Positions 47,309 to 63,333 of a DNA stretch of 64,000 nucleotides are shown here, in pieces (position 1 is the stretch's first letter; each line of letters starts with the position of its first letter). The DNA is from Streptomyces sp. AM 2-1-1. Its GTDB lineage: Bacteria > Actinomycetota > Actinomycetes > Streptomycetales > Streptomycetaceae. Where the stretch lies: the NCBI RefSeq assembly GCF_029167645.1, contig NZ_CP119147.1:3658001-3722000 (forward strand). Reading direction: 5' to 3'. The notes beneath the pieces are model-generated. The model made no database searches, had not been told where the DNA came from, and saw nothing but the letters and a program-made list of their open reading frames with translations. A program made the position numbers and the translations under genes.

Positions 47309-47398
47309 GGTGGGTTGCCCGAGCGGCCTAAGGGAACGGTCTTGAAAACCGTCGTGGCAGCGATGTCACCGTGGGTTCAAATCCCACACCCACCGCCA
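47309..47398 (+). tRNA. tRNA-Ser(UGA)
   Basis: 90 nt including encoded CCA. Acceptor GGTGGGT pairs with ACCCACC, anticodon loop CTTGAAA (TGA), a long variable arm, T arm GTGGGTTCAAATCCCAC. It serves as the integration site of the mobile element that starts here. Confidence 0.97.
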
Positions 47399-47534: not shown

Positions 47535-48938
47535 CTACTCCTCGGCGCGAAGCCCCAGCTCAACGAGCCGGTTGGCCGCAGCCGAACCGCCCTTGAGGAG
47601 CTTGGCGTAGAACCGGTAGAGCACCGCGAGGCTGTGGCCGGCGCGATAAGCGGCCTCCACCGGGTCCATGCCGGACTTGATCCACAGCGAGATCGCGGCG
47701 TGCCGCAGGGAGTACGGGACCTCGGCCAACGCGGTCCGAAGCTCCTGTTCGCTGAGTACTGCCTTCCGTGCCTCGCTCCAGACCCCGGAGTATTCGTTCG
47801 ACGTCAGACGGCCGCCACGCACCGCCGGGAACAGTCGGCCGTCTGGTGCGACGCCGAAGCGAGCGATGTGGGCGCGGACCATGCGCACGTATATCGGCGG
47901 GACGGGAACGGCGCGTACGGCCCTCCGCGCCCGGTGCTTTAGGCCACGCTCGTCGTGCGACTTCCCGCTGTCGGTCCAGCCGCCCCCGACTTCCGGGTGG
48001 CTTTCCGACACCAGCACTTCACCCCACGCCTCCGGCTCGCTCTCTGGCGGCAGGATGAAGTCCGATTCCTTGAGCGCTGCGGCTTCGCCGGGCCGCGTTG
48101 CCACGTAGTAGACGGCCCCGTAGAACGCTTCCAGACGCTCACCGCGTTCTCCCTGCGCGGCCACGGCGGCGAGTAGAGCGCGAGCGAGCCGAGGGCCGGG
48201 CACCCACCGGAAATCGACCTCGTCCGAGGTCTGCGGAGCGGCCCAGTCCACCGACAGGAATGGGTGGCGTGTGAGGAGGGCCCGTTCCTCAACTGCGTAA
48301 CGGAAGGCGTTGCTCAGAACCATGCGCTTTCGGTTGGCGGTGTTCTCCGCCGCAGGTTTCCCGTTCAGGAGCCGGGAAAGCGCCGTGAGTGCCGCTCGCA
48401 CGTGCTCCGGCTTCGCGGCTTCGTCCACCCGCATCGAATGCTGCCCAACCCACTCCAGTGCCTTCCGGACGTCGTCGGGGGGTTCTTGGGCGTCGGAGCG
48501 CGAGATGATCTGATTCTTCGGGCCGTCCACGGCTCGAAACGCCCACTGGTACAGAGCGGTACGTAGTACGCGGGCATCAGGTCGGGCGCTGGGCCCAGTC
48601 GTGAAGACGGGTGTCACAACTGCAAGGGATTCCGCAATGCTTGCTCGATGCTTCGCAGCCGCCCCGGGCCACTTCATCAGCGCGTACGCCTTGGCGTGCT
48701 CGAACCATGTTGGCATTGCGAGGGCGGCAAGCTCCTTCTCAGGAAGACCGGTCTCCTCGTCGAACTGCTGGCCCGCTCGCAGAGCAGCCATGAGCTGAGA
48801 GCGGCGACCATCGGCCTGCGGTTTGAGGGTGAAGCTTTTCGAGTGCCCCTCGGCTCCCACACGCCAGCGGAGTTCCCAGGGCTTCGGCCGGCCTTTGCGT
48901 TGCCGGATGGACCAGATGACGACATCGAAGGTGAGCAT
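47535..48938 (-). CDS. int: Tyrosine-family integrase
   Basis: 467 residues. Catalytic residues: Arg282 in VATRPGEAA, Arg412/His413 in PYSLRHAAISLW (the box-II His-x-x-Arg reads Tyr-Ser-Leu-Arg, as in other AICE integrases), Gly-His434-435 and nucleophile Tyr444 in YRFYAK. A SAM-like/core-binding domain covers residues 75-215. It recombines attP with the tRNA-Ser attB. GGAG precedes the ATG. A hairpin (48951-48980) separates it from xis. Confidence 0.95.
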   Translation of the reverse strand: MLTFDVVIWSIRQRKGRPKPWELRWRVGAEGHSKSFTLKPQADGRRSQLMAALRAGQQFDEETGLPEKELAALAMPTWFEHAKAYALMKWPGAAAKHRASIAESLAVVTPVFTTGPSARPDARVLRTALYQWAFRAVDGPKNQIISRSDAQEPPDDVRKALEWVGQHSMRVDEAAKPEHVRAALTALSRLLNGKPAAENTANRKRMVLSNAFRYAVEERALLTRHPFLSVDWAAPQTSDEVDFRWVPGPRLARALLAAVAAQGERGERLEAFYGAVYYVATRPGEAAALKESDFILPPESEPEAWGEVLVSESHPEVGGGWTDSGKSHDERGLKHRARRAVRAVPVPPIYVRMVRAHIARFGVAPDGRLFPAVRGGRLTSNEYSGVWSEARKAVLSEQELRTALAEVPYSLRHAAISLWIKSGMDPVEAAYRAGHSLAVLYRFYAKLLKGGSAAANRLVELGLRAEE

Positions 48939-49464: not shown

Positions 49465-51015
49465 TCAGGCGGTGGGTTCGCTGAGCTGGGGGTGGGTGAG
49501 GTAGCGCGGGGAGGGTGGCCGGCCGCGTCCTCCCGTCTTGGCGACGGGTTGGGCCCGGACGTACCCGTGGTCTTCCAACAGGTCCAGGGCGGGGTCCAGG
49601 TCCGCGACGGTGGGGAACTCGGCGCGGGAGAGCTTGGTCATGACCTCGCGTTTGCTGACCTCGGCCCACTGGTTGGCCCGAAGCAGGTCCAGGACGGTGC
49701 GGGCGCGGTTGGCGGTGTGGTCGGCTCCCATGAGGTCGAACACCGTCAGGGCGTGGCCGGTGAAGTAGTCCGCGAGCTTGATGGCGTCGCGCATGGTGTC
49801 GGCGGTGACGGGCTGGGTGTGCCCGTTCTCCGTGTGCGCGGCCAGGTGGAGCAGCCCGGCAAGTCGGGCGGTCGCGCCGCCCAGCTTCGCGGCCCAGTTC
49901 CGGATGTGCCCCAGGTCCCCGCCCCGCTTCCGCAGCCGGGGTTCCTGCCGACGCTCGTAAGCGGCCAGGGCCTCGTTGGCCTCGGGGGTGAGCTGGAGTA
50001 CGGCCGGATCGGTCCAGCCCGCCAGAGACATCACCAGCGAGGTGACGCGTTCCTCGTAAAGGTCGGCCACGTCCTCGGCCAGGGGCTCGGGGGTGACTTC
50101 CCGATAGCCCACCAGGTCTTCGGGGAGGGAGTACAGGAACCTGCCCAACAGGCCCCTGTCCCCTGCTCCCTTGATGCGGCTGATGTCTTCCAGGACGGAG
50201 GGCTGAACGGTCTGACCCATGGTGAGTGCGGGGGAGTCGATGAACTCCTCCCGCCCCCTACGGTCCACCCGCAGGCGGTCCCCGGCGTGGCCTTTGAGGA
50301 AGGGCTCCATGTTGGGGGTGCCGGAGTAGCGTCCGGCGATGATGTCGAAGATCCCGCCCTCGGCCGACATCACCGACAACCTGCCGCCCTGTTCCGCGAG
50401 TAGTGAGGAGATGACTTCCGGGGTGGCGTCGTCGGCCAGCAGCCGGGGCTTGTTGGGCACGGTGACGGCCTCGGCGGCCTGCCCGAGGCTGATGGCTTCG
50501 GCCATGAGCTGATCGCGCTTGTCGGCGTCCGCGCGGGCTGCCTTGGTAGCCGCGTTGTCCGCGACTTCCTTGGCGAGGCGTGCGGTGAGTTCGGCCTCGA
50601 TGATCGCCCCGGCCGCCTTGGTGGCCATCAGCTTCTCGCACGTGTAGAGCGGGTCCGTCATCAGTCCGAACACCGCGCTCTTGCGGCTGCCCGGGGGCAG
50701 CGCCATGACGACGAACAGGTTCAGCGGTTCCCGCCACCGGCCTCGGACATGGACGGTGGCGCGGCCTCCGGCAGCGGTCGCCAGGACCGCGAGAGCGAGC
50801 GACCCCGCAGCATCCACCGACGTTTGCGTCTCCTCCGCGACCCCGCGCACGAAGTCACCGAGCCAGGGAGGGAAGACCTCCGTGGGGAACGCCGGCAGTT
50901 CGCGGCGGGCGGTCAGCGGGATCGGGTCGTCCCACGAAGCCGCGGCTTCCTGCTGTGCGCCCTGGGCGTCGAAGTAGGCCCACAGCTCGGAACTTTCCAT
51001 CGGCTGGGTGCTCAT
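49465..51015 (-). CDS. DUF3987 (YfjI-type) replication helicase-like protein
   Basis: 516 residues. The DUF3987 domain resembles helicase-primase proteins of phage and plasmids. The nucleotide-binding loop reads PPGSRKS (residues 107-113), a divergent Walker A (arginine in place of glycine). The N-terminal region QTSVDAAGSLALAVLATAAGG is typical. It starts four bases inside the Prim-Pol gene end, so the two are translated as a unit: Prim-Pol synthesises primers, this protein likely unwinds or loads at the origin. Confidence 0.85.
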   Translation of the reverse strand: MSTQPMESSELWAYFDAQGAQQEAAASWDDPIPLTARRELPAFPTEVFPPWLGDFVRGVAEETQTSVDAAGSLALAVLATAAGGRATVHVRGRWREPLNLFVVMALPPGSRKSAVFGLMTDPLYTCEKLMATKAAGAIIEAELTARLAKEVADNAATKAARADADKRDQLMAEAISLGQAAEAVTVPNKPRLLADDATPEVISSLLAEQGGRLSVMSAEGGIFDIIAGRYSGTPNMEPFLKGHAGDRLRVDRRGREEFIDSPALTMGQTVQPSVLEDISRIKGAGDRGLLGRFLYSLPEDLVGYREVTPEPLAEDVADLYEERVTSLVMSLAGWTDPAVLQLTPEANEALAAYERRQEPRLRKRGGDLGHIRNWAAKLGGATARLAGLLHLAAHTENGHTQPVTADTMRDAIKLADYFTGHALTVFDLMGADHTANRARTVLDLLRANQWAEVSKREVMTKLSRAEFPTVADLDPALDLLEDHGYVRAQPVAKTGGRGRPPSPRYLTHPQLSEPTA

Positions 51016-51926
51016 GCCGCGCTCGCCTCCCGTGCGCCGCCACGGACGAGGCCGGAGCGGATCGCGGTACGGCTCTCGGACGCGGACAGGCCGGCCGACT
51101 GTCCGGCGCTCATCAGCTCGCTGGTGACGGTGGCCTCGGTCAGGTCCTCGGTGCGGATGAGGCGGGCCAGGGCGTAGGCGGCGAAGTACACCGACCGATT
51201 ACGACCGCCCTCGCGGGCGGACAGCACCTTTTCCAGCTCCCCGCGCAGGGCGGTGGTGCTGTAGGCGGTGGCGTTGCGCATCCGGGCCGACAACTCGGAG
51301 AGAGGCATCGGGGCCGGTGCGGGCGGGGTGGTGAGCAGGTCACCGAGCCACGCAGGGAGGGGGGCGGCCGGGGCTTCGTGAATGACCTCATAGCCCCCGG
51401 TGCCGACCAGGCTTCCGGCGCCGACCACGTACCCGCCCCAAGCCCGGGTGTCGACCTTCCAGCCCAGGGTGCCGCCCGTGCTGCGTAGCGTCTTTCCCTC
51501 GGGGGCGGTGAAGTACAGGTGCTGTCCGCCACGGCGGGTGCGCACGGTGTACGTCTCGGTCGGCAGCCGCTCACCAGCGCGCTCGCACAGGGCGGCGAAC
51601 ACGTCCAGCCCATCGGCCATGCCCGCCCACTCGGACGGTGCCGTGTCGGCAGAGTCCTTGGGCAGGTCCAGGTCCACCACCACGAGGCCGGCGGGACCGG
51701 TGGCGATCCCGACGTTGTACGGGGCCGACTCCCAGCACGCGCGGATGCTGTCCGCGTCCAGGGTGGCCCGCTGCTCCGGGGTGCGGTGACCGTCCGAGCA
51801 ACGCCCGATGCCGGGGCAGTACCGCTCAGGGTGCCCGGCGGGCCGCTTGTCACCGGGGCGGACGGGGAAGACGGGCCAGCCGCGCGCGGCGGCCGTCAGA
51901 GCGGCGTTCAACAGGTGGGTGCTCAT
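51012..51926 (-). CDS. Bifunctional primase/polymerase (Prim-Pol)
   Basis: 304 residues. Active-site acids are present: VVVDLDLPK (Asp85, Asp87), GGQHLYF (His136) and KVDTRAWGGYVVGAGS (Asp159/Arg161). It can prime and extend DNA for the element's autonomous replication. GAGGAGG precedes the ATG. It contrasts with the degenerate core paralogue at 40663. Its stop overlaps the DUF3987 start by four bases (ATGA). Confidence 0.93.
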   Translation of the reverse strand: MSTHLLNAALTAAARGWPVFPVRPGDKRPAGHPERYCPGIGRCSDGHRTPEQRATLDADSIRACWESAPYNVGIATGPAGLVVVDLDLPKDSADTAPSEWAGMADGLDVFAALCERAGERLPTETYTVRTRRGGQHLYFTAPEGKTLRSTGGTLGWKVDTRAWGGYVVGAGSLVGTGGYEVIHEAPAAPLPAWLGDLLTTPPAPAPMPLSELSARMRNATAYSTTALRGELEKVLSAREGGRNRSVYFAAYALARLIRTEDLTEATVTSELMSAGQSAGLSASESRTAIRSGLVRGGAREASAA

Positions 51927-52630
51927 GCTGCCGCCTCCTCGGTGCGGGTGAGGAACGCGGTACCGATCCATCGGGTGTAGGCGGGCGGCAGCGCCTCGCG
52001 CAGGGCCAGGTGGTCATGGGACCAGCCGATGCCCTTGGCCTCGCGGATCTCCTGCACGGTGGCCTTGCCCCCGCCCTTGCCGTAGGCGGCGACGTAGGGG
52101 CCGTCGAAGTATTCGCCGTGCCGCCACCCCCGCACCCTGCCCCGGTGCACGGGGTGCGCCGGCTGCGGGGCGGTCCAGTTGCCCAGCTCGAAGTAGCGGT
52201 GCATCAGCACGGCCAAGGAGAACTGCTCACCGCACAGCCGCAGGTCTTTACGGACCTCGGAGCCGGCCACGTTCTCGATGACGTAGGGCCGGCCGACGAT
52301 GTCGAGCGCGGCCCGGGTGGGCGCGATGAGACGAGGGTGCCGGCGGCCCGTGCGGACGTTGCGGGCGGCGTTCGTGCCCTTGGTCGGCGCTCCCTCTCCC
52401 TGGCAGGGGGGCGAGGCGTGGATGAAGTCGAACTCGTGCCCGTGCTCGCGGATGAACGCCACGGCGTCGCCCTGGTGGAAGGCGTCACCGCAGTAGTCGG
52501 GCTGGGCCTTGATGTCGACGCCGGTGACGTGCCAGCCGAGATCCTGGTAGCCGCGTGCCGCGCCACCGATGCAGCAGAACGCGTCAAGCACTCGAAGGCG
52601 GGATCGCCGGATGGGGGTGGGTTGAGTCAT
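51923..52630 (-). CDS. C5 DNA-cytosine methyltransferase
   Basis: 235 residues, compact. Motif I VLDAFCCIGGAARGY, catalytic SPPCQG (Cys76), ENV (IENVAG, Glu119) and a C-terminal LREALPPAYTRWIGTAF like motif IX/X are present. A normal target-recognition domain between motifs VIII and IX is very short. No restriction endonuclease is adjacent; it may mark element DNA or protect it from a host or element methyl-dependent nuclease. Overlaps Prim-Pol by four bases; AGGAG precedes its ATG. It begins an operon behind a duplicated leader. Confidence 0.9.
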   Translation of the reverse strand: MTQPTPIRRSRLRVLDAFCCIGGAARGYQDLGWHVTGVDIKAQPDYCGDAFHQGDAVAFIREHGHEFDFIHASPPCQGEGAPTKGTNAARNVRTGRRHPRLIAPTRAALDIVGRPYVIENVAGSEVRKDLRLCGEQFSLAVLMHRYFELGNWTAPQPAHPVHRGRVRGWRHGEYFDGPYVAAYGKGGGKATVQEIREAKGIGWSHDHLALREALPPAYTRWIGTAFLTRTEEAAA

Positions 52631-52640
52631 GCTGGGGGTT

Positions 52641-52710
52641 CTCCTGTTTCTGCGAAGGGACAAGGGAGCCGGGGCGGTCGCGGTCTTGTGGTGAGAGGCG
52701 ACCGCCCCGG
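52641..52710 (-). promoter_or_regulatory. Duplicated hairpin leader, copy 1 (before the methyltransferase)
   Basis: Contains a perfect 13-bp stem CCGGGGCGGTCGC with its complement (52669-52710) and a 24-base segment identical to 58981-59004, followed by the ribosome site and ATG. It may be terminator or attenuator, and lies directly after the Spd-type gene stop. Confidence 0.65.
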
Positions 52711-52716
52711 GCACAG

Positions 52717-53958: not shown

Positions 53959-56130
53959 TCAGCTCCCGGACCGGCTTCCGTCACGCACCGTGATTGCTTT
54001 GGTGATGTCGGCGCGGGCGATGCCCCGGCGGGTGGTGCCCTTGCCCTTGTCGCTGGTGCCCCAGACGTCCTGCGCGGTGACGCCGTGGGGCTTGAGGTTC
54101 GAGGTGACCGTCTCGGCCTTCCAGCCGCCGTAGACCTCCGGGCGCAGGGCGGTGAGCCGGGCGGCGATCTTCTCGTTCCACACCTTGTCCTCGTCGGCCG
54201 GCACAACCTTGAGGATGTCGGCGAGGAGGTCGAAGGAGGCTTCCCCGTTCTCCGGCTGCTGGCCGATGGCGTGGCCGGTGAGGTTGCCGTACTCCTCGCG
54301 CATCTTCCGGGCCCTGGCCACGACCTTCTCCGCGCCGACCGCGTCCACGAACGCGGACGCGACGATGCGGGGGTCGTCGCCCTCACCGGCCATCCAGCAG
54401 ATGCCACGGTCGGTGCGGGAGAACATCGTGGCCCGGTATCCGGCCTTGTACATCGAGGTGCCCAGCACCATGTCGTTGGCGGGCTGGCCCATGACCTTCA
54501 GGCAGAACCGCAGTACGGCGTTGGCGCTGATGCCGGTGGGCAGCGACTTCGCGTCGGGCCGCTGGGTGCCGAACAGCATCGTCATCCCCAGCGCCGGACC
54601 CCGCTTGCCCAGGTCAGTTGCGATCTCCTCCAGCTCCGCCCCGTACTTCTCATGCTCGAAGGGGACCTGGCACTCATCGAAACCGGCGACGATCGGGTGC
54701 AGCCCCAACGTCTTGTCGTTCGCCAGCTCCGGGGTCACCTTCGACTCCGGGCAGCGCGAGCGCGGCAGGGACTTGATGACCTTCGCCCGCCTGCGCAGCT
54801 CCGCCCGCAGCTCCCGCAGCGATTCCAGGACGTAGAGGATGTCCTCGTCCTCATCCCCGGCCCGGTAGCGGTGGCAGACCGGCTCCAGGGCGCCGAAGTC
54901 GCCGGTGCCCTTGAAGTCGAACGCGTACAGCTCCGCACGCGGGTCCAGGGCCGCGATCAGCAGGAACAGGCGCATCAGGAACGTCTTGCCCATGCGCGGG
55001 ATGGACCCGACGATGACGGACGCGAACATCAGGGTCACGGCCACGTCGCCCATGCGCTGGTCGTTGCCGAACACGACCGGCCTGAACAGATCCACGCTGC
55101 CCGACTTCAGCAGCGGCCAGGCGGGCTTGGTGGTCTCGTTCATGGGCTTGTCACCCACCCACAGGATCAACCTGCCCTCGTGCTCGGTCGGGTCGGAGGA
55201 GGGCCACACACAGCCGACCTTGCGGCGCAGACCGGAGGCGAGGGGCTTGCGGGCCTCCATGATGTCCTCCGGGGTGACACCCCACGGAAGGTCCAGGTCA
55301 GCGCGGTATCCGGGCCCGTCACGGGTGATCTCGGAGGTGAAGCGCATCCCGTTCATGTCGCCGCCCTTCTTGATGGCGGCCGACAGCTTGACGTTGCCGA
55401 TGTTGTCCAGGGCGCGCAGCACGATGGGCCCGGTGAGCTTCTGCAGCTCGGTCTTCAGCACGGCGGGGCCGATGACCGGCTGATCCTGCGGCGAGCCCCA
55501 GAATCCGGCGACCAGCACCGCAGCGGACGCCATGACCGCGAGCCAGGCCGGGGCCATGACGTACAGGGTCAGAGCGAGAGCGGCGCCGAAGACCAACCCG
55601 ACGAGGGTGACGAACGTCCGCAGCCGCACGCGGTGGTCGCGCTGCCGCGACAGCTTCAGGTACTCGGCGGTGTTCTCCTTGTAGACCTCATAGGCCCGCA
55701 AGGGCGCGGCCTCCGCGTCCCACATCCACCTGTTGGTCTCCTTCACCAGCCGCGCCACACCCTGCGGGGCACGCAACCCCAACTGGAGCACGTACACGGG
55801 AGTGCGGACGCCGTGGAAGGCGGTGGCGTAGAACGCGTTCGACGCGGCGCGCTGGGTGGTGGAGACGAACCCCGGCTTCGAGGTCAGCCAACTCGGCAGG
55901 ATCGGCAGCCGCTTGTAGGTGGTGACACCCGGGTCGGGCAGGGTGGGCGAGTCGACCGGACGAAGCCGCGGCGGCTCCTCCTCGTCGTCGATCTCGACCG
56001 GCGCGGTGGGAACGGACGCTTTGGCCGGTTCCGGGGCCGGGGCGGTGGGGCGCTTGGTGGTGATGTCGAAGACCTCGGCGTCGGGACGCTCGGGCGCTTC
56101 GGCCTGTTCGGTGACATGCGTGTCAGACAC
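53959..56130 (-). CDS. tra: FtsK/SpoIIIE-type transfer translocase (TraB/TraSA)
   Basis: 723 residues. N-terminal membrane spans (around residues 150-200), a central P-loop GSIPRMGKTFLM (about 370-380), Walker B-type YAFDFKGTGDF, and the ISANAVLRFCLKVMGQPANDMVLG region of FtsK-like DNA translocases. A C-terminal wHTH-like domain (LTALRPEVYGGWKAETVTSNL) likely reads clt. It moves double-stranded DNA between mycelial tips. The GTG 56130 is the best start; a 58-codon extension lacks a site. Confidence 0.93.
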   Translation of the reverse strand: MSDTHVTEQAEAPERPDAEVFDITTKRPTAPAPEPAKASVPTAPVEIDDEEEPPRLRPVDSPTLPDPGVTTYKRLPILPSWLTSKPGFVSTTQRAASNAFYATAFHGVRTPVYVLQLGLRAPQGVARLVKETNRWMWDAEAAPLRAYEVYKENTAEYLKLSRQRDHRVRLRTFVTLVGLVFGAALALTLYVMAPAWLAVMASAAVLVAGFWGSPQDQPVIGPAVLKTELQKLTGPIVLRALDNIGNVKLSAAIKKGGDMNGMRFTSEITRDGPGYRADLDLPWGVTPEDIMEARKPLASGLRRKVGCVWPSSDPTEHEGRLILWVGDKPMNETTKPAWPLLKSGSVDLFRPVVFGNDQRMGDVAVTLMFASVIVGSIPRMGKTFLMRLFLLIAALDPRAELYAFDFKGTGDFGALEPVCHRYRAGDEDEDILYVLESLRELRAELRRRAKVIKSLPRSRCPESKVTPELANDKTLGLHPIVAGFDECQVPFEHEKYGAELEEIATDLGKRGPALGMTMLFGTQRPDAKSLPTGISANAVLRFCLKVMGQPANDMVLGTSMYKAGYRATMFSRTDRGICWMAGEGDDPRIVASAFVDAVGAEKVVARARKMREEYGNLTGHAIGQQPENGEASFDLLADILKVVPADEDKVWNEKIAARLTALRPEVYGGWKAETVTSNLKPHGVTAQDVWGTSDKGKGTTRRGIARADITKAITVRDGSRSGS

Positions 56131-56171
56131 GGTGAGTCCGTTCTCATGGATGGGGTGGGGATCGCGTCCGG

Positions 56172-56561
56172 TCAGACGGCGAGCTGCGGGGAATCCGCGC
56201 AGGTCACGCACATGCCGAGCGATGTGGGGATGCGGTATCCGGCATCGGTGCGGCACTCGGGGCAGACCTGCCGGGCGGTGTTCGCCTTGGCGAGAGCCGC
56301 CCATTTGGCCGGCGTCATCGGCCGGACCGTCTTGGCCAGGTCGATCCGGTAGAGGTAGGCGACGCGGACGGGGCTGGTGCCCTTAGCCCAGTAGCGGCGC
56401 GAGCGCCACAGGACCTGTGCGGCGATGTCCTGCCCACCGGGCCGGAGCCCTGCCGCCCTGAGCTGGCGGCGCGTGGCATAGCCGTCCGGGGCCATGCGCC
56501 ACGGGAACGTGGGCACCCCGTAGCGGGAACCGGTCGGGTCGTAGAAGCGGTGGTTGCCCAT
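56172..56561 (-). CDS. RRQRL-motif zinc-binding protein
   Basis: 129 residues. A RRQLRAAGLRPGGQDIAAQV segment and a C-terminal CPECRTD...CVTC zinc pair. This small family is found in actinomycete elements next to DUF2637 proteins and may work in transfer or replication. ATG 56561 overlaps the preceding stop by one base. Confidence 0.85.
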   Translation of the reverse strand: MGNHRFYDPTGSRYGVPTFPWRMAPDGYATRRQLRAAGLRPGGQDIAAQVLWRSRRYWAKGTSPVRVAYLYRIDLAKTVRPMTPAKWAALAKANTARQVCPECRTDAGYRIPTSLGMCVTCADSPQLAV

Positions 56562-59394: not shown

Positions 59395-59437
59395 GTTGGC
59401 TGTCCTAATCGGCTCAGGAGGTCGTAACATCGAGGGC

Positions 59438-60304
59438 ATGACCTTCACTCCCGAAGCACTGGACCCGGACGACGCCCGGCCGCCGTACGAGCAGGTGGCG
59501 AGCAGTCTGAGCGCCGCCATCAGGACTCGGAAGCTGGGCCCCGGAGAGAAGATCCCGTCTCAGAAGGAACTGACGGAGGCGTATGGATTCGCCCGCGCCA
59601 CGATCCAACGGGCTCTCCGAGAGCTGGAAGACGAGGGGCTGATCGTCTCTCGCAAGGGCAGCGGCGTGTTCGTGCGGAACCGCACCGAACGGCCGGCGGG
59701 TCTTCGGCCGTACGTCGAGCAAGCCTTCGCCAGCCAGAACGTGTCGATCGACTTCGCAGGCTTCTCTAGCGAGACGCTCCACGGGGCACTTCAGGAGCCG
59801 ATCGACAAGATCCGCGTGGGGCGTCTGACTCCGTCAACCATCAACATCCGCATCCTGGTGCCAGACATGTCGGTGCCCCAGGCTGCGCCTGTTCGGCGAG
59901 AGGACGGTAGTGATGACCCCCGGCTCCGGGCCCGGATGCACGACATGATGGTGAGCTTCACTCGGAGCATCGCCAACACGATGCATGAACTCAGCGTGCT
60001 CGGGCTGGTCAGCGAAGCGAAGGTCAGCGTGCGCGTTCACAGCGGCACGCAGTTCTTCAAGCTCTACTTGATCAACCAGGACGACGCCTTTTTCGGGTAC
60101 TACCCGATCCGCCCGAACAAGGTCGTCACTCAAGGGGAGGTCATAGAGATCTATGACCTCGTCGGGGCGGAGGCCACGCTGTTCCACTACTCGATGAACG
60201 AGGGGGAGTCGTCCAGTGGTGCTCAGCAGGTGAGCCAGGCCCGTATGTGGTTTGACAGCGTGTGGGAGACCATCGGGAGGGACTTTGACCCGGATGGAAA
60301 GTAA
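59438..60304 (+). CDS. GntR-family regulator (KorSA-like)
   Basis: 288 residues. The GntR winged helix at about residues 8-75 (QKELTEAYGFARATIQRALRELEDEGLI) is intact. The C-terminal 200 residues are an unusual effector or signalling domain (FLGALQ... NTMHELSVLG), not a standard FCD/UTRA domain by eye. In pSAM2 the GntR protein KorSA represses element replication and transfer. It overlaps the HAD gene by 11 bases, which suggests joint signal processing. Confidence 0.85.
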   Translation: MTFTPEALDPDDARPPYEQVASSLSAAIRTRKLGPGEKIPSQKELTEAYGFARATIQRALRELEDEGLIVSRKGSGVFVRNRTERPAGLRPYVEQAFASQNVSIDFAGFSSETLHGALQEPIDKIRVGRLTPSTINIRILVPDMSVPQAAPVRREDGSDDPRLRARMHDMMVSFTRSIANTMHELSVLGLVSEAKVSVRVHSGTQFFKLYLINQDDAFFGYYPIRPNKVVTQGEVIEIYDLVGAEATLFHYSMNEGESSSGAQQVSQARMWFDSVWETIGRDFDPDGK

Positions 60305-61249: not shown

Positions 61250-62353
61250 ATGGATTCGCTCTTGCGTGAGGTGCTCGATCTCCAGCAGTCATGGACGGCC
61301 AAGAAGAACCCCGAGATGGATAAACGCGGTTCCCTGATCTCCTCTCAACTTCCCGCTGAGCTGCGGAAGTCACTACCGCTGCTGGCGTCGGTCCTCGGTG
61401 TAGCCGAAGCAGAGGTGGGTGTGGAAGGGAGCAACGGCGCGGGCTTCAATGCCAAGATTCCGTGGGTTCGCGTCTACGAGCCGCGTCGCTCCCCCGGAGC
61501 CACGATCGGCTGGTACCTCGTCTATCTCTTCAGCACCACTGGGGACCGGGTCTATCTGTCCTTGATACAGGGCACCACCGTGTGGACCGGAGGCATGTTC
61601 GCCCCCCGGAAGCCTGCGGAGCTGCAGTCACGTGTTGACTGGGCTCGCCCGCTGCTGTCGTCCAGCGTCACGAGTCGCACGGACCTCGTCACCTCCCTCA
61701 CGTTGCAGGGCAATCAGGCCAGGTTGAGCAGTAGCTACGAAGCAGGCAACGTCGTCGCCATCGAGTATCAGCGCGAGAAGATCCCTGAGTCGTCCAAGCT
61801 GCTGGACGACCTGCTGTTCATGACCGGCCTGCTGCGAGATGTCTACCGCGCTGAAGACACTGCCTCCTACGTGCCCGGTGATCCTGTCCCCGAGGTGGTG
61901 GAGGCGCGGGAGGCCGCGGCACGGACGGCAGGTCGACGGAAGCGGACGGCGCCGGGCCAGGGCTTTCGCTTGTCCGCCGACGAACGGCGCGCTGTCGAGC
62001 TGCACGCGGTGCAGATGGCAACCGCCCACTTCGTGAAGCAGGGTTGGTCGGTCAAGGACGTGGGAGCCAAGGAGTCATACGACCTGCTGCTATCGCGGGG
62101 AGATGAGCGCCTGCATGTCGAGGTGAAGGGCACTACCTCTGCTGGCGGTCAGGTCATCCTCACCCGTGCCGAGGTCGAGCGTCAGCGAGAGTTGGCTCCG
62201 GACAATGCTCTTGTAGTCGTGCACTCCATCATCCTGGATAGGAGCGCCCCAACCAGCATTGCCGGCGGCGGCATCCTGGAGTGCCTCACCCCATGGACCA
62301 TTGCGGACGAAGATCTGACAGTTGTCTCCTTCGTCTACCGGACAGGGCTTTGA
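61250..62353 (+). CDS. DUF3578 (McrB N-domain)-DUF3883 protein, putative modification-dependent nuclease
   Basis: 367 residues. Residues 1-200 resemble DUF3578, the N-terminal domain of McrB that recognises modified DNA (MDSLLREVLDLQQSW, FNAKIPWVRVYEP, VYLSLIQGTT). Residues 240-340 match DUF3883 (RAVELHAVQMATAHFVKQGWSVKDV), with PD-(D/E)xK-like residues Asp278 in SYDLLL and Glu291-Lys293 in HVEVKGTT. No helicase or GTPase domain is present, so it looks like a single-chain reader-nuclease. A 34-residue extension from 61148 is possible. Confidence 0.8.
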   Translation: MDSLLREVLDLQQSWTAKKNPEMDKRGSLISSQLPAELRKSLPLLASVLGVAEAEVGVEGSNGAGFNAKIPWVRVYEPRRSPGATIGWYLVYLFSTTGDRVYLSLIQGTTVWTGGMFAPRKPAELQSRVDWARPLLSSSVTSRTDLVTSLTLQGNQARLSSSYEAGNVVAIEYQREKIPESSKLLDDLLFMTGLLRDVYRAEDTASYVPGDPVPEVVEAREAAARTAGRRKRTAPGQGFRLSADERRAVELHAVQMATAHFVKQGWSVKDVGAKESYDLLLSRGDERLHVEVKGTTSAGGQVILTRAEVERQRELAPDNALVVVHSIILDRSAPTSIAGGGILECLTPWTIADEDLTVVSFVYRTGL

Positions 62354-62502
62354 TCTGTACGGCTGACACCAACGCAGTCGAGCGAACCCAGACCGGAACC
62401 CCCGGTCACGTGCGGCCGATGGTCTTGCCCCTCTGAGCCATTCAGTTCGAACCCCCACGAACGCCCCCGAACGGCCGTGCGGAAAGTTGGAAAGCGTGAG
62501 GG

Positions 62503-63333
62503 ATGGAACAGGTGGAAGCCCAGACAGACGGTCCGGGCTCGGGGCACTGGACTCGCGAGTGGGTCTCTCAGGTGTCCGGCTGTCTGGTTGAAGCGGAGCC
62601 AGCCTGGGGAGGCTGCGTTTTCAAAGACATGTGGGAGGGGCGGAGCGTGCGAAGTCAACCTGAGGACATCAAGCACGAGGACGAGATCGTATGGACAGAG
62701 GACGTCAGCTCATTCGACTACGTCCGCGAGACCTTAGTCGACGGTGTCGGCACTCGGCGGCGTCCCGTCTCATGGCGTGGCCAGGCAGGACGCCGAGTCG
62801 GCTACGCACTTCTCAAGTCCAACGCGCCTAGTGACCGGGATGCGCCGGGCATGTTCACGCGGCGCGTGTTCTGGGTGAAGGAGCACGATCGATCCGAACA
62901 ACCGGACGGGGCTTACAGCTCCGGCGCACCATCGGAAGCGGTCGACCCTCGAACGGTGGCCCCACGGGTCTGTGGGGAGCTAACAGAGCGAGCATGGGGT
63001 GGACCTGTAGACGCCACTCCCCCCAAGGAGCGAGCCGCTGCGAAGCAATCACAGCGTGCTCGCCCCTCACGGGTGGCGGCAGAGGCAAGTTCGCCCGAGG
63101 CGCCGGCTGCCGTAGAGCAGGGCGTCAAGGAAGCCTTTGCCGACTGGCTACGCTTCCGCGATGTGAGCGTCCCCGAGACACTCGGCGCGGCTGCTGAGGA
63201 AGCCTTCTCTCGTTGGCTCTGGGGGAACTCTAAAGAACTGACGGAGGCGATCGCTGCGGCCATCGCCAAGCGAGTCTCGCTTACGGAGACGCCATCCCCC
63301 GCAGCTGCCGAAGCGCCCCGCGAACAGAAGTAG
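62503..63333 (+). CDS. Uncharacterised 276-aa cargo protein
   Basis: 276 residues, no recognised family. N-terminal half with many Trp/Tyr/Asp (WTREWVSQ, VWTEDVSSF), a low-complexity Ala/Pro/Glu linker (about 175-205) and a helical C-terminal end (ADWLRFRDVSVPETLGAAAEEAFSRWL). GGAAAG lies eight bases before the ATG. 149 bp after the DUF3578-DUF3883 gene on the same strand, so it may be its partner. Confidence 0.65.
   Translation: MEQVEAQTDGPGSGHWTREWVSQVSGCLVEAEPAWGGCVFKDMWEGRSVRSQPEDIKHEDEIVWTEDVSSFDYVRETLVDGVGTRRRPVSWRGQAGRRVGYALLKSNAPSDRDAPGMFTRRVFWVKEHDRSEQPDGAYSSGAPSEAVDPRTVAPRVCGELTERAWGGPVDATPPKERAAAKQSQRARPSRVAAEASSPEAPAAVEQGVKEAFADWLRFRDVSVPETLGAAAEEAFSRWLWGNSKELTEAIAAAIAKRVSLTETPSPAAAEAPREQK

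Follow-up and report, generated by a model that had tools for sequence, protein, structure and literature searches.

The modification-dependent restriction endonucleases (REases) AspBHI and PvuRts1I are fusions of a reader and a nuclease in one chain. The same direct fusion is described, in the accessible parts of the literature, for MspJI, the EVE-HNH enzyme VcaM4I, the SRA-HNH enzyme TagI and the SBD-SRA-HNH enzyme ScoMcrA, the readers of these single-chain enzymes being SRA, EVE or SBD domains. The N-terminal reader domain of McrB (McrB-N; PF12102/DUF3578) has been described, in the available parts of two papers, as part of McrBC with its GTPase (PMC12707154; PMC7641849), and DUF3883 is termed “a novel REase domain” in the available part of a third (PMC3710099). 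Here we describe a gene in a stretch of 64,000 nucleotides from Streptomyces sp. AM 2-1-1 (hereafter the window; contig NZ_CP119147.1, positions 3,658,001 to 3,722,000), which joins an McrB-N reader and a NOV_C/DUF3883 nuclease domain of the PD-(D/E)xK type in one chain without a nucleoside triphosphatase (NTPase), and which is carried on a mobile element.

Architecture and Conserved Residues of the Predicted Nuclease

Pfam searches with the 401-aa open reading frame (ORF) place MrcB_N/DUF3578 at residues 48-231 (E 2.3e-31; 109.3 bits against a cut-off of 25) and NOV_C/DUF3883 at residues 284-360 (E 2.1e-9; 37.8 bits against a cut-off of 22.1). No NTPase or AAA domain is seen in this ORF at E <= 1, while E. 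coli McrB, searched as a control, returns AAA_5 at E 3.6e-32, and no McrC gene is found among the two genes scanned on each side of the nuclease (GntR and HAD; DUF6009 and M78 peptidase). In having reader and nuclease in one chain, without an NTPase, the protein resembles the single-chain modification-dependent (Type IV / Type IIM) REases. In the predicted structure, one half of the protein matches McrB-N chains and the other half Hjc-like PD-(D/E)xK nucleases: Hjc, the SPARDA nuclease and DpnI are among the matches, Holliday-junction resolvases being closest and the RNA-cutting tRNA-splicing endonucleases appearing lower in the same list.

A database search returned at least 253 matching proteins, and conservation was counted on the best 120 of 253 (P0001 being the query's own cluster). 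The catalytic residues E250, D278, E291 and K293 of the 367-aa protein (E284, D312, E325 and K327 in 401-aa numbering), as well as a Q, are kept in 120/120, and the four residues together with Q346 (401-aa numbering) are invariant in 40 aligned sequences, namely the protein of the window and 39 homologs at 53-70% identity. A wider set comprised 51 sequences, the query and those of 50 out of 55 loci whose ORF has 250 aa or more (five were dropped; L014 is the same as L113); here E, D, E and K are kept in 50, the exception (L043) aligning over the reader only, and Q346 is variable (Q 24, H 24, N 3). The pocket residues W72, Y89, L93 and Y163 (W106, Y123, L127 and Y197 in 401-aa numbering) are present in 120, 119, 120 and 120 of the same best 120. 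Their equivalence to W49, Y64 and L68 of E. coli McrB comes from a profile alignment that is weak (52 columns, E 0.016), and that to Y117 was assigned by eye; the equivalents of the methyl-contacting residues Y64 and L68 are those kept in 119 and 120 sequences. The sequence-only reading of this stretch had proposed a modified-base reader joined to a PD-(D/E)xK domain without an NTPase and had named Glu291/Lys293 as residues to mutate; Pfam, the predicted structure and residue conservation all agree with this, and Glu291/Lys293 is the conserved ExK of the nuclease motif.

The protein invites comparison with several described systems. It shares with E. coli McrBC the reader family PF12102, the predicted fold and the conserved equivalents of the four pocket residues, but lacks an AAA+ GTPase and McrC, carries its nuclease in the same chain and does not conserve McrB Y41. 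From the single-chain REases introduced above, as far as the accessible literature describes them, it differs in having McrB-N and NOV_C/DUF3883 as its two parts. The latter domain is also found in helicase-type restriction-modification (R-M) proteins such as HmaA, where it is fused to an SNF2 helicase, whereas here only C-terminal stretches match in PADLOC (TmtA, E 3e-4; HmaA, E 0.046). No model of PADLOC-DB 2.0.0 or NCBIfam covers most of the nuclease, and a PDB sequence search gave no McrB-N match (three unrelated weak matches with the single protein, none with a profile). Databases already hold the architecture, with both Pfam domains and under the name “MrcB family domain-containing protein”. 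Papers naming DUF3578 and DUF3883 together, or DUF6009, were not found in a search outside of which most subscription literature lies; among the matches listed for Type IV defense on elements or in Streptomyces, and for NaeI in combination with Type IV restriction, no paper dealt with the nuclease, and the available parts of PMC6769113 and PMC12923530 have no bearing on it.

The start of the gene at the reader ATG 61250 is common to many homologs. An S-x(4)-TL motif upstream of it is shared with the window by 7 of 39 aligned homologs (P0002, P0005, P0012, P0020, P0054, P0065 and P0117) and suggests an alternative start at GTG 61220, which would give 377 aa. The GC content of the gene is 63.2%, compared with 71.1% for the window.

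Distribution of the Family and a Second MrcB_N Architecture

With this number of matching proteins, the gene is not as singular as the sequence-only reading had implied. Within the genus the nuclease is patchy, with matches in 7 of 199 genomes (E 1e-20) and, in a second sample that overlaps the first, in 9 of 392 (E 1e-40), own genome and partial copies included. At least two element backbones that are unrelated to each other carry it. The closest named homolog, 70% identical, is from Streptacidiphilus (organism inferred). No phage sequence matched the nuclease in tblastn, and none of 16 matching plasmid records did so over more than 42% of the query. A related element in genome G019 (L091, 9348-12705), whose GntR is 78% identical, carries a nuclease gene that is broken by ~2.2 kb of other sequence.

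A common neighborhood was not evident. When 920 flank ORFs were clustered all-vs-all and clusters from at least four loci were inspected, Lentzea synteny alone, the nuclease itself aside, placed three or more members within 3 kb. In a Pfam tally, which covered 142 neighbors called by our own ORF heuristic rather than taken from annotation and left out eight Lentzea loci (L018, L021, L023, L024, L026, L027, L030 and L042) and 10 of the 152 remaining neighbors, no family was seen more than three times; UvrD-type helicases (GajB-like in PADLOC) were commonest, and DNA_methylase and DndB were counted twice each. NaeI, present at 3 of the 46 loci analyzed there, was not at the top of either analysis and surfaced through a PF00145 search.

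PF12102 was found in 14 of 150 genus genomes, in open frames of 321-529 aa. According to the alignment, five of these proteins, among them the G019 copy with its interruption, belong to the NOV_C family, and the other nine form part of a second actinobacterial family of ~360 aa, which likewise unites an McrB-N reader and a PD-(D/E)xK motif in one chain. The second family differs in its nuclease half: in four members scanned, PF12102 alone exceeded the cut-off, with a non-significant XisH match in one. Its C-terminal half contains the motif H-E ... P-[KR]-D ... VEAK ... Q, conserved among the best 120 of 124 members found (H-E 119 and 117/119, D 118/118, E 118/119, K 116/119, Q 116/116), and is probably another PD-(D/E)xK nuclease for which there is no Pfam model, the motif naming being our own. 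Among the matches listed, P0195, P0247 and P0275 have UniRef names that open with “Type IV methyl-direc...”.

Association with NaeI and C5 Methylases

Among 57 distinct nuclease loci (46 and 11, partial copies included), a NaeI-type Type II REase lies within 5 kb in six, from four genera (L090, L112, L013, L110, L014 and L002). Three Streptomyces loci show the order nuclease, C5 methyltransferase (MTase), NaeI on one strand; in Streptacidiphilus (organism inferred) NaeI follows the nuclease by ~70 bp on the same strand, with no MTase found adjoining, and similar NaeI clusters are seen in Actinacidiphila and Nocardiopsis. A C5 MTase adjoins NaeI in five of the six. Measured against the NaeI of genome G109, five of the six are 76-100% identical (G109's own included) and that of Nocardiopsis 37%. 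The linkage to NaeI and its MTase is not constant, however, since 51/57 nuclease loci lack NaeI and the genome of the window has no match to it at E <= 1e-10. Conversely, NaeI occurs in 30 of 199 genus genomes, and at none of these 30 loci does the nuclease lie within the flanks of ~1.5 kb; in G109 it is just outside them. Two side observations concern similar arrangements: in G143 (L157) a locus of NaeI and a C5 MTase stands beside an AspBHI-type modification-dependent REase, a like pairing with an unrelated reader, and an AspBHI-like stretch is found near the partial nuclease locus L041.

C5-MTase-like ORFs, searched with a profile from six seeds, are present in the flanks of 10 of the 57 loci, one of them without the PCQ motif. 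At the level of the genome, PF00145 C5 methylase genes were found in 11/11 carriers searched as opposed to 69/101 genus genomes (Fisher p 0.018 for 11/11 vs 67/99). This is a small comparison, in which two other genera are mixed in; carriers were counted if their copies span 84% or more of the query, and genomes with broken or short copies (G007, G019 and G165) were left out, while G007 and G019 are still contained in the control sample. The genome of the window has three further ORFs with PF00145 matches besides the MTase of the element. The question of how self and non-self modification are told apart, which the sequence-only reading had placed within the element, is therefore a real one but wider than the element.

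The Downstream DUF6009 Gene

The gene downstream of the nuclease had been read as an uncharacterized 276-aa partner in a two-gene module. It has a family name (DUF6009/PF19472, E 1e-38 in Pfam) and probably starts at GTG 62647, because the homologs P0122 and P0124 start there and a GGGAGGGG run stands just upstream, which would make it 228 aa; depending on the start, 150 to 290 bp separate it from the nuclease. A fixed module is not borne out, nor is the pair conserved in its adjacency: DUF6009 is near 0/46 nuclease homologs of other genomes (fetched flanks of up to 10 kb each side) and at one of 13 further loci fetched from our G-numbered genomes (L089 and L113 in that set repeating L010 and L014). 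That locus, L088 of G149, has both genes in the same order and strand, 55% and 67% identical to those of the window. The element there is unrelated and pSAM2-like (RepSA, FtsK, DUF2637) and lies beside the same tRNA-Ser, with one end seen.

DUF6009 itself is common on Streptomyces plasmids, with matches in 32/199 relatives (E 1e-5), 61/295 genus genomes (E 1e-25) and 324 plasmid records. Of 20 plasmid matches listed, 14 (11 of them in S. clavuligerus) reach into a P4-type primase gene as well; DUF6009 comes directly after a prim-pol/P4-primase pair in one annotated plasmid but not in a second. The neighbor of a close DUF6009 (68%) in G159 is an MrcB_N protein of the second family. In G309 a 93%-identical DUF6009 lies near another tRNA-Ser, with no MrcB_N match in the 34 kb fetched; divergent to it, near tRNA-Ser(CGA), are genes for a 159-aa protein and an 827-aa TPR protein with a weak AAA match (L133:11529-14503), which look like another cargo or defense gene. 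P0143, P0144 and P0152 are fusions of DUF6009 to a Gp3-like recombination-directionality-factor domain (PF18897). DUF6009 may belong to the excision or replication biology of such elements. It is probably a neighbor of the nuclease and not a partner, the two being cargo genes that share habitats, although the link may be of a facultative kind.

The Mobile Element

The nuclease is carried by an element of 18.3 kb, bracketed by an exact 60-bp repeat of the 3' part of tRNA-Ser(TGA) at 47337-47396 and 65636-65695, the second copy falling beyond the window end (Table 1). Judged from its sequence it is an actinomycete integrative conjugative element, for which the integrase and FtsK parts rely on weak matches and position. 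Nuclease and DNA MTase lie together between the repeats, as the sequence-only reading had stated. Its assignment of the MTase to the C5 type depends on PCQ and ENV motifs seen by eye, and neither PF00145 nor our own C5 profile detects the protein; relatives occur in 294 phage records, and one plasmid relative is annotated as a DNA cytosine methyltransferase. Stretches 35-36% identical to the prim-pol-like protein adjoin DUF6009 in L098 and L099. Further genes between the repeats encode a GGDEF protein, a HAD hydrolase and an M78 peptidase. The gene for the latter, of M78/IrrE type (338 aa, 63733-64749, minus strand), extends past the window end, adjoins DUF6009 and is possibly a regulator of the element; an unassigned 107-aa ORF lies upstream of it.

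Table 1. Features of the nuclease locus and its element, with an example of the second MrcB_N family.
Feature	Coordinates	Strand	Length	Basis or remark
Single-chain MrcB_N-NOV_C protein	61250..62353	+	367 aa	Frame open from 61148 (401-aa ORF)
McrB-type modified-base reader domain, PF12102/DUF3578	61289..61840	+		Pfam, McrB-N structure match, pocket conservation
NOV_C/DUF3883 (PF13020) PD-(D/E)xK nuclease domain	61997..62227	+		Pfam, fold match, conservation
DUF6009 gene (PF19472)	62647..63333	+	228 aa from GTG 62647	276 aa from ATG 62503
tRNA-Ser(TGA)	47309..47398	+		3' part 47337-47396 is one element end
Integrase	47535..48938	-	467 aa	PF00589 E 0.0019, below cut-off; adjoins tRNA
DUF3987 protein, probable replication gene	49465-51015	-		PF13148 E 1.5e-102
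Prim-pol-like protein, probable replication gene	51012-51971	-		Name is our own reading
Phage-type DNA methyltransferase	51923..52714	-		phrog_363 E 1.4e-37; PCQ, ENV motifs by eye
FtsK/TraB-like transfer ATPase	53959..56304	-	781 aa	Weak PF01580 match, E 0.0093, below cut-off
GntR-family regulator	59396..60304	+		PF00392 E 5.4e-19
Second MrcB_N family	e.g., L135:10529-11635 (G159)		~360 aa	P0175-P0294

Discussion

We consider it likely that the product of the gene is a modification-dependent DNA endonuclease that is sufficient by itself, independent of nucleoside triphosphates (NTP) and carried as cargo of the element; the cleavage, substrate and defense role that we infer for it would be as follows. 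A modified cytosine, or a base like it, would be flipped into the pocket of the McrB-type N-domain. The PD-(D/E)xK domain at the C-terminus, probably acting as a dimer or on two sites, would then cut nearby with Mg2+ and without NTP. Incoming modified DNA, such as that of phages, other elements or methylated plasmids, would thereby be restricted, while 5-methylcytosine (5mC) placed by resident MTases would be ignored. C5 methylases coexist with the nuclease in the carriers searched and therefore, if these methylases are active, not every 5mC can be a target; the target is presumably narrower, defined by sequence context or by another modification.

An alternative that we regard as unlikely, though the least so of those considered, is that the protein is an accessory nuclease of Type II R-M loci, in which the C5 MTase protects the sites of the host while the nuclease serves as an additional or backup restriction enzyme and may read sites that are unmodified or wrongly modified. 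The close spacing in Streptacidiphilus, the shared gene order in Streptomyces and the clusters in Actinacidiphila and Nocardiopsis would fit such a role, as would the presence of PF00145 methylases in all carriers searched, and the available part of one paper presumes DUF3883 to be a group of Type II REases (PMC10609329). Most nuclease loci have no NaeI, however, and none of the 30 genus NaeI loci shows the nuclease in its flanks of ~1.5 kb. Furthermore, NaeI possesses its own catalytic domain. It is less probable still that nuclease and DUF6009 form a two-gene defense module with DUF6009 as regulator, antitoxin or recruiter: the recurrence of the pair in G149 on an unrelated element, and the close DUF6009 beside a second-family nuclease in G159, are to be set against its absence from the fetched flanks of nearly all nuclease loci, the lack of such a nuclease in the 34 kb fetched around the G309 copy, the intergenic gap and the occurrence of DUF6009 after a plasmid primase or in fusion with a recombination-directionality-like domain.

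No more probable is a structure-specific, Hjc-like nuclease serving replication or recombination of the element, with the N-domain binding DNA or reading damaged bases and no part in defense. In the predicted model, Holliday-junction resolvases are the nearest match of the nuclease half, but the strict conservation of the modified-base pocket, the patchy occurrence, the presence on at least two unrelated backbones and the restriction enzyme nearby in six of the 57 loci all point away from such a role. Lowest of all we place a protein that targets modified RNA, or one that excludes DNA by binding only. For some McrBC relatives RNA is the predicted target, as the available part of PMC11090510 has it; here, the fold matches include Hjc and DpnI, though the tRNA-splicing endonucleases appear further down, and retention of the E-D-E-K residues throughout the best 120 homologs argues against a protein that merely binds.

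Returning to the modification-dependent endonuclease that we favor, what is new is the presence of two single-chain MrcB_N architectures in the genus, the association with NaeI and the co-occurrence with C5 methylases, whereas the domain combination as such was already in the databases and single-chain REases with SRA, EVE or SBD readers were known. We tentatively suggest a broader scenario, for which the odds are somewhat against us: in Streptomyces the McrB-type reader would have left its GTP motor to form two compact, NTP-independent reader-nuclease families, found on mobile elements and beside NaeI loci and sparing resident 5mC, such that one locus could police both unmodified DNA (through NaeI) and, through the reader-nuclease, DNA with the wrong modification.

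McrB-N is familiar as the leading part of a translocase driven by GTP. A compact enzyme that combines this reader with a cutting domain would be easier to study and, given a narrow specificity, useful for mapping modified bases. As the carriers searched also encode C5 methyltransferases, they make it testable how a modification-dependent nuclease separates the methylation of its host from that of foreign DNA.
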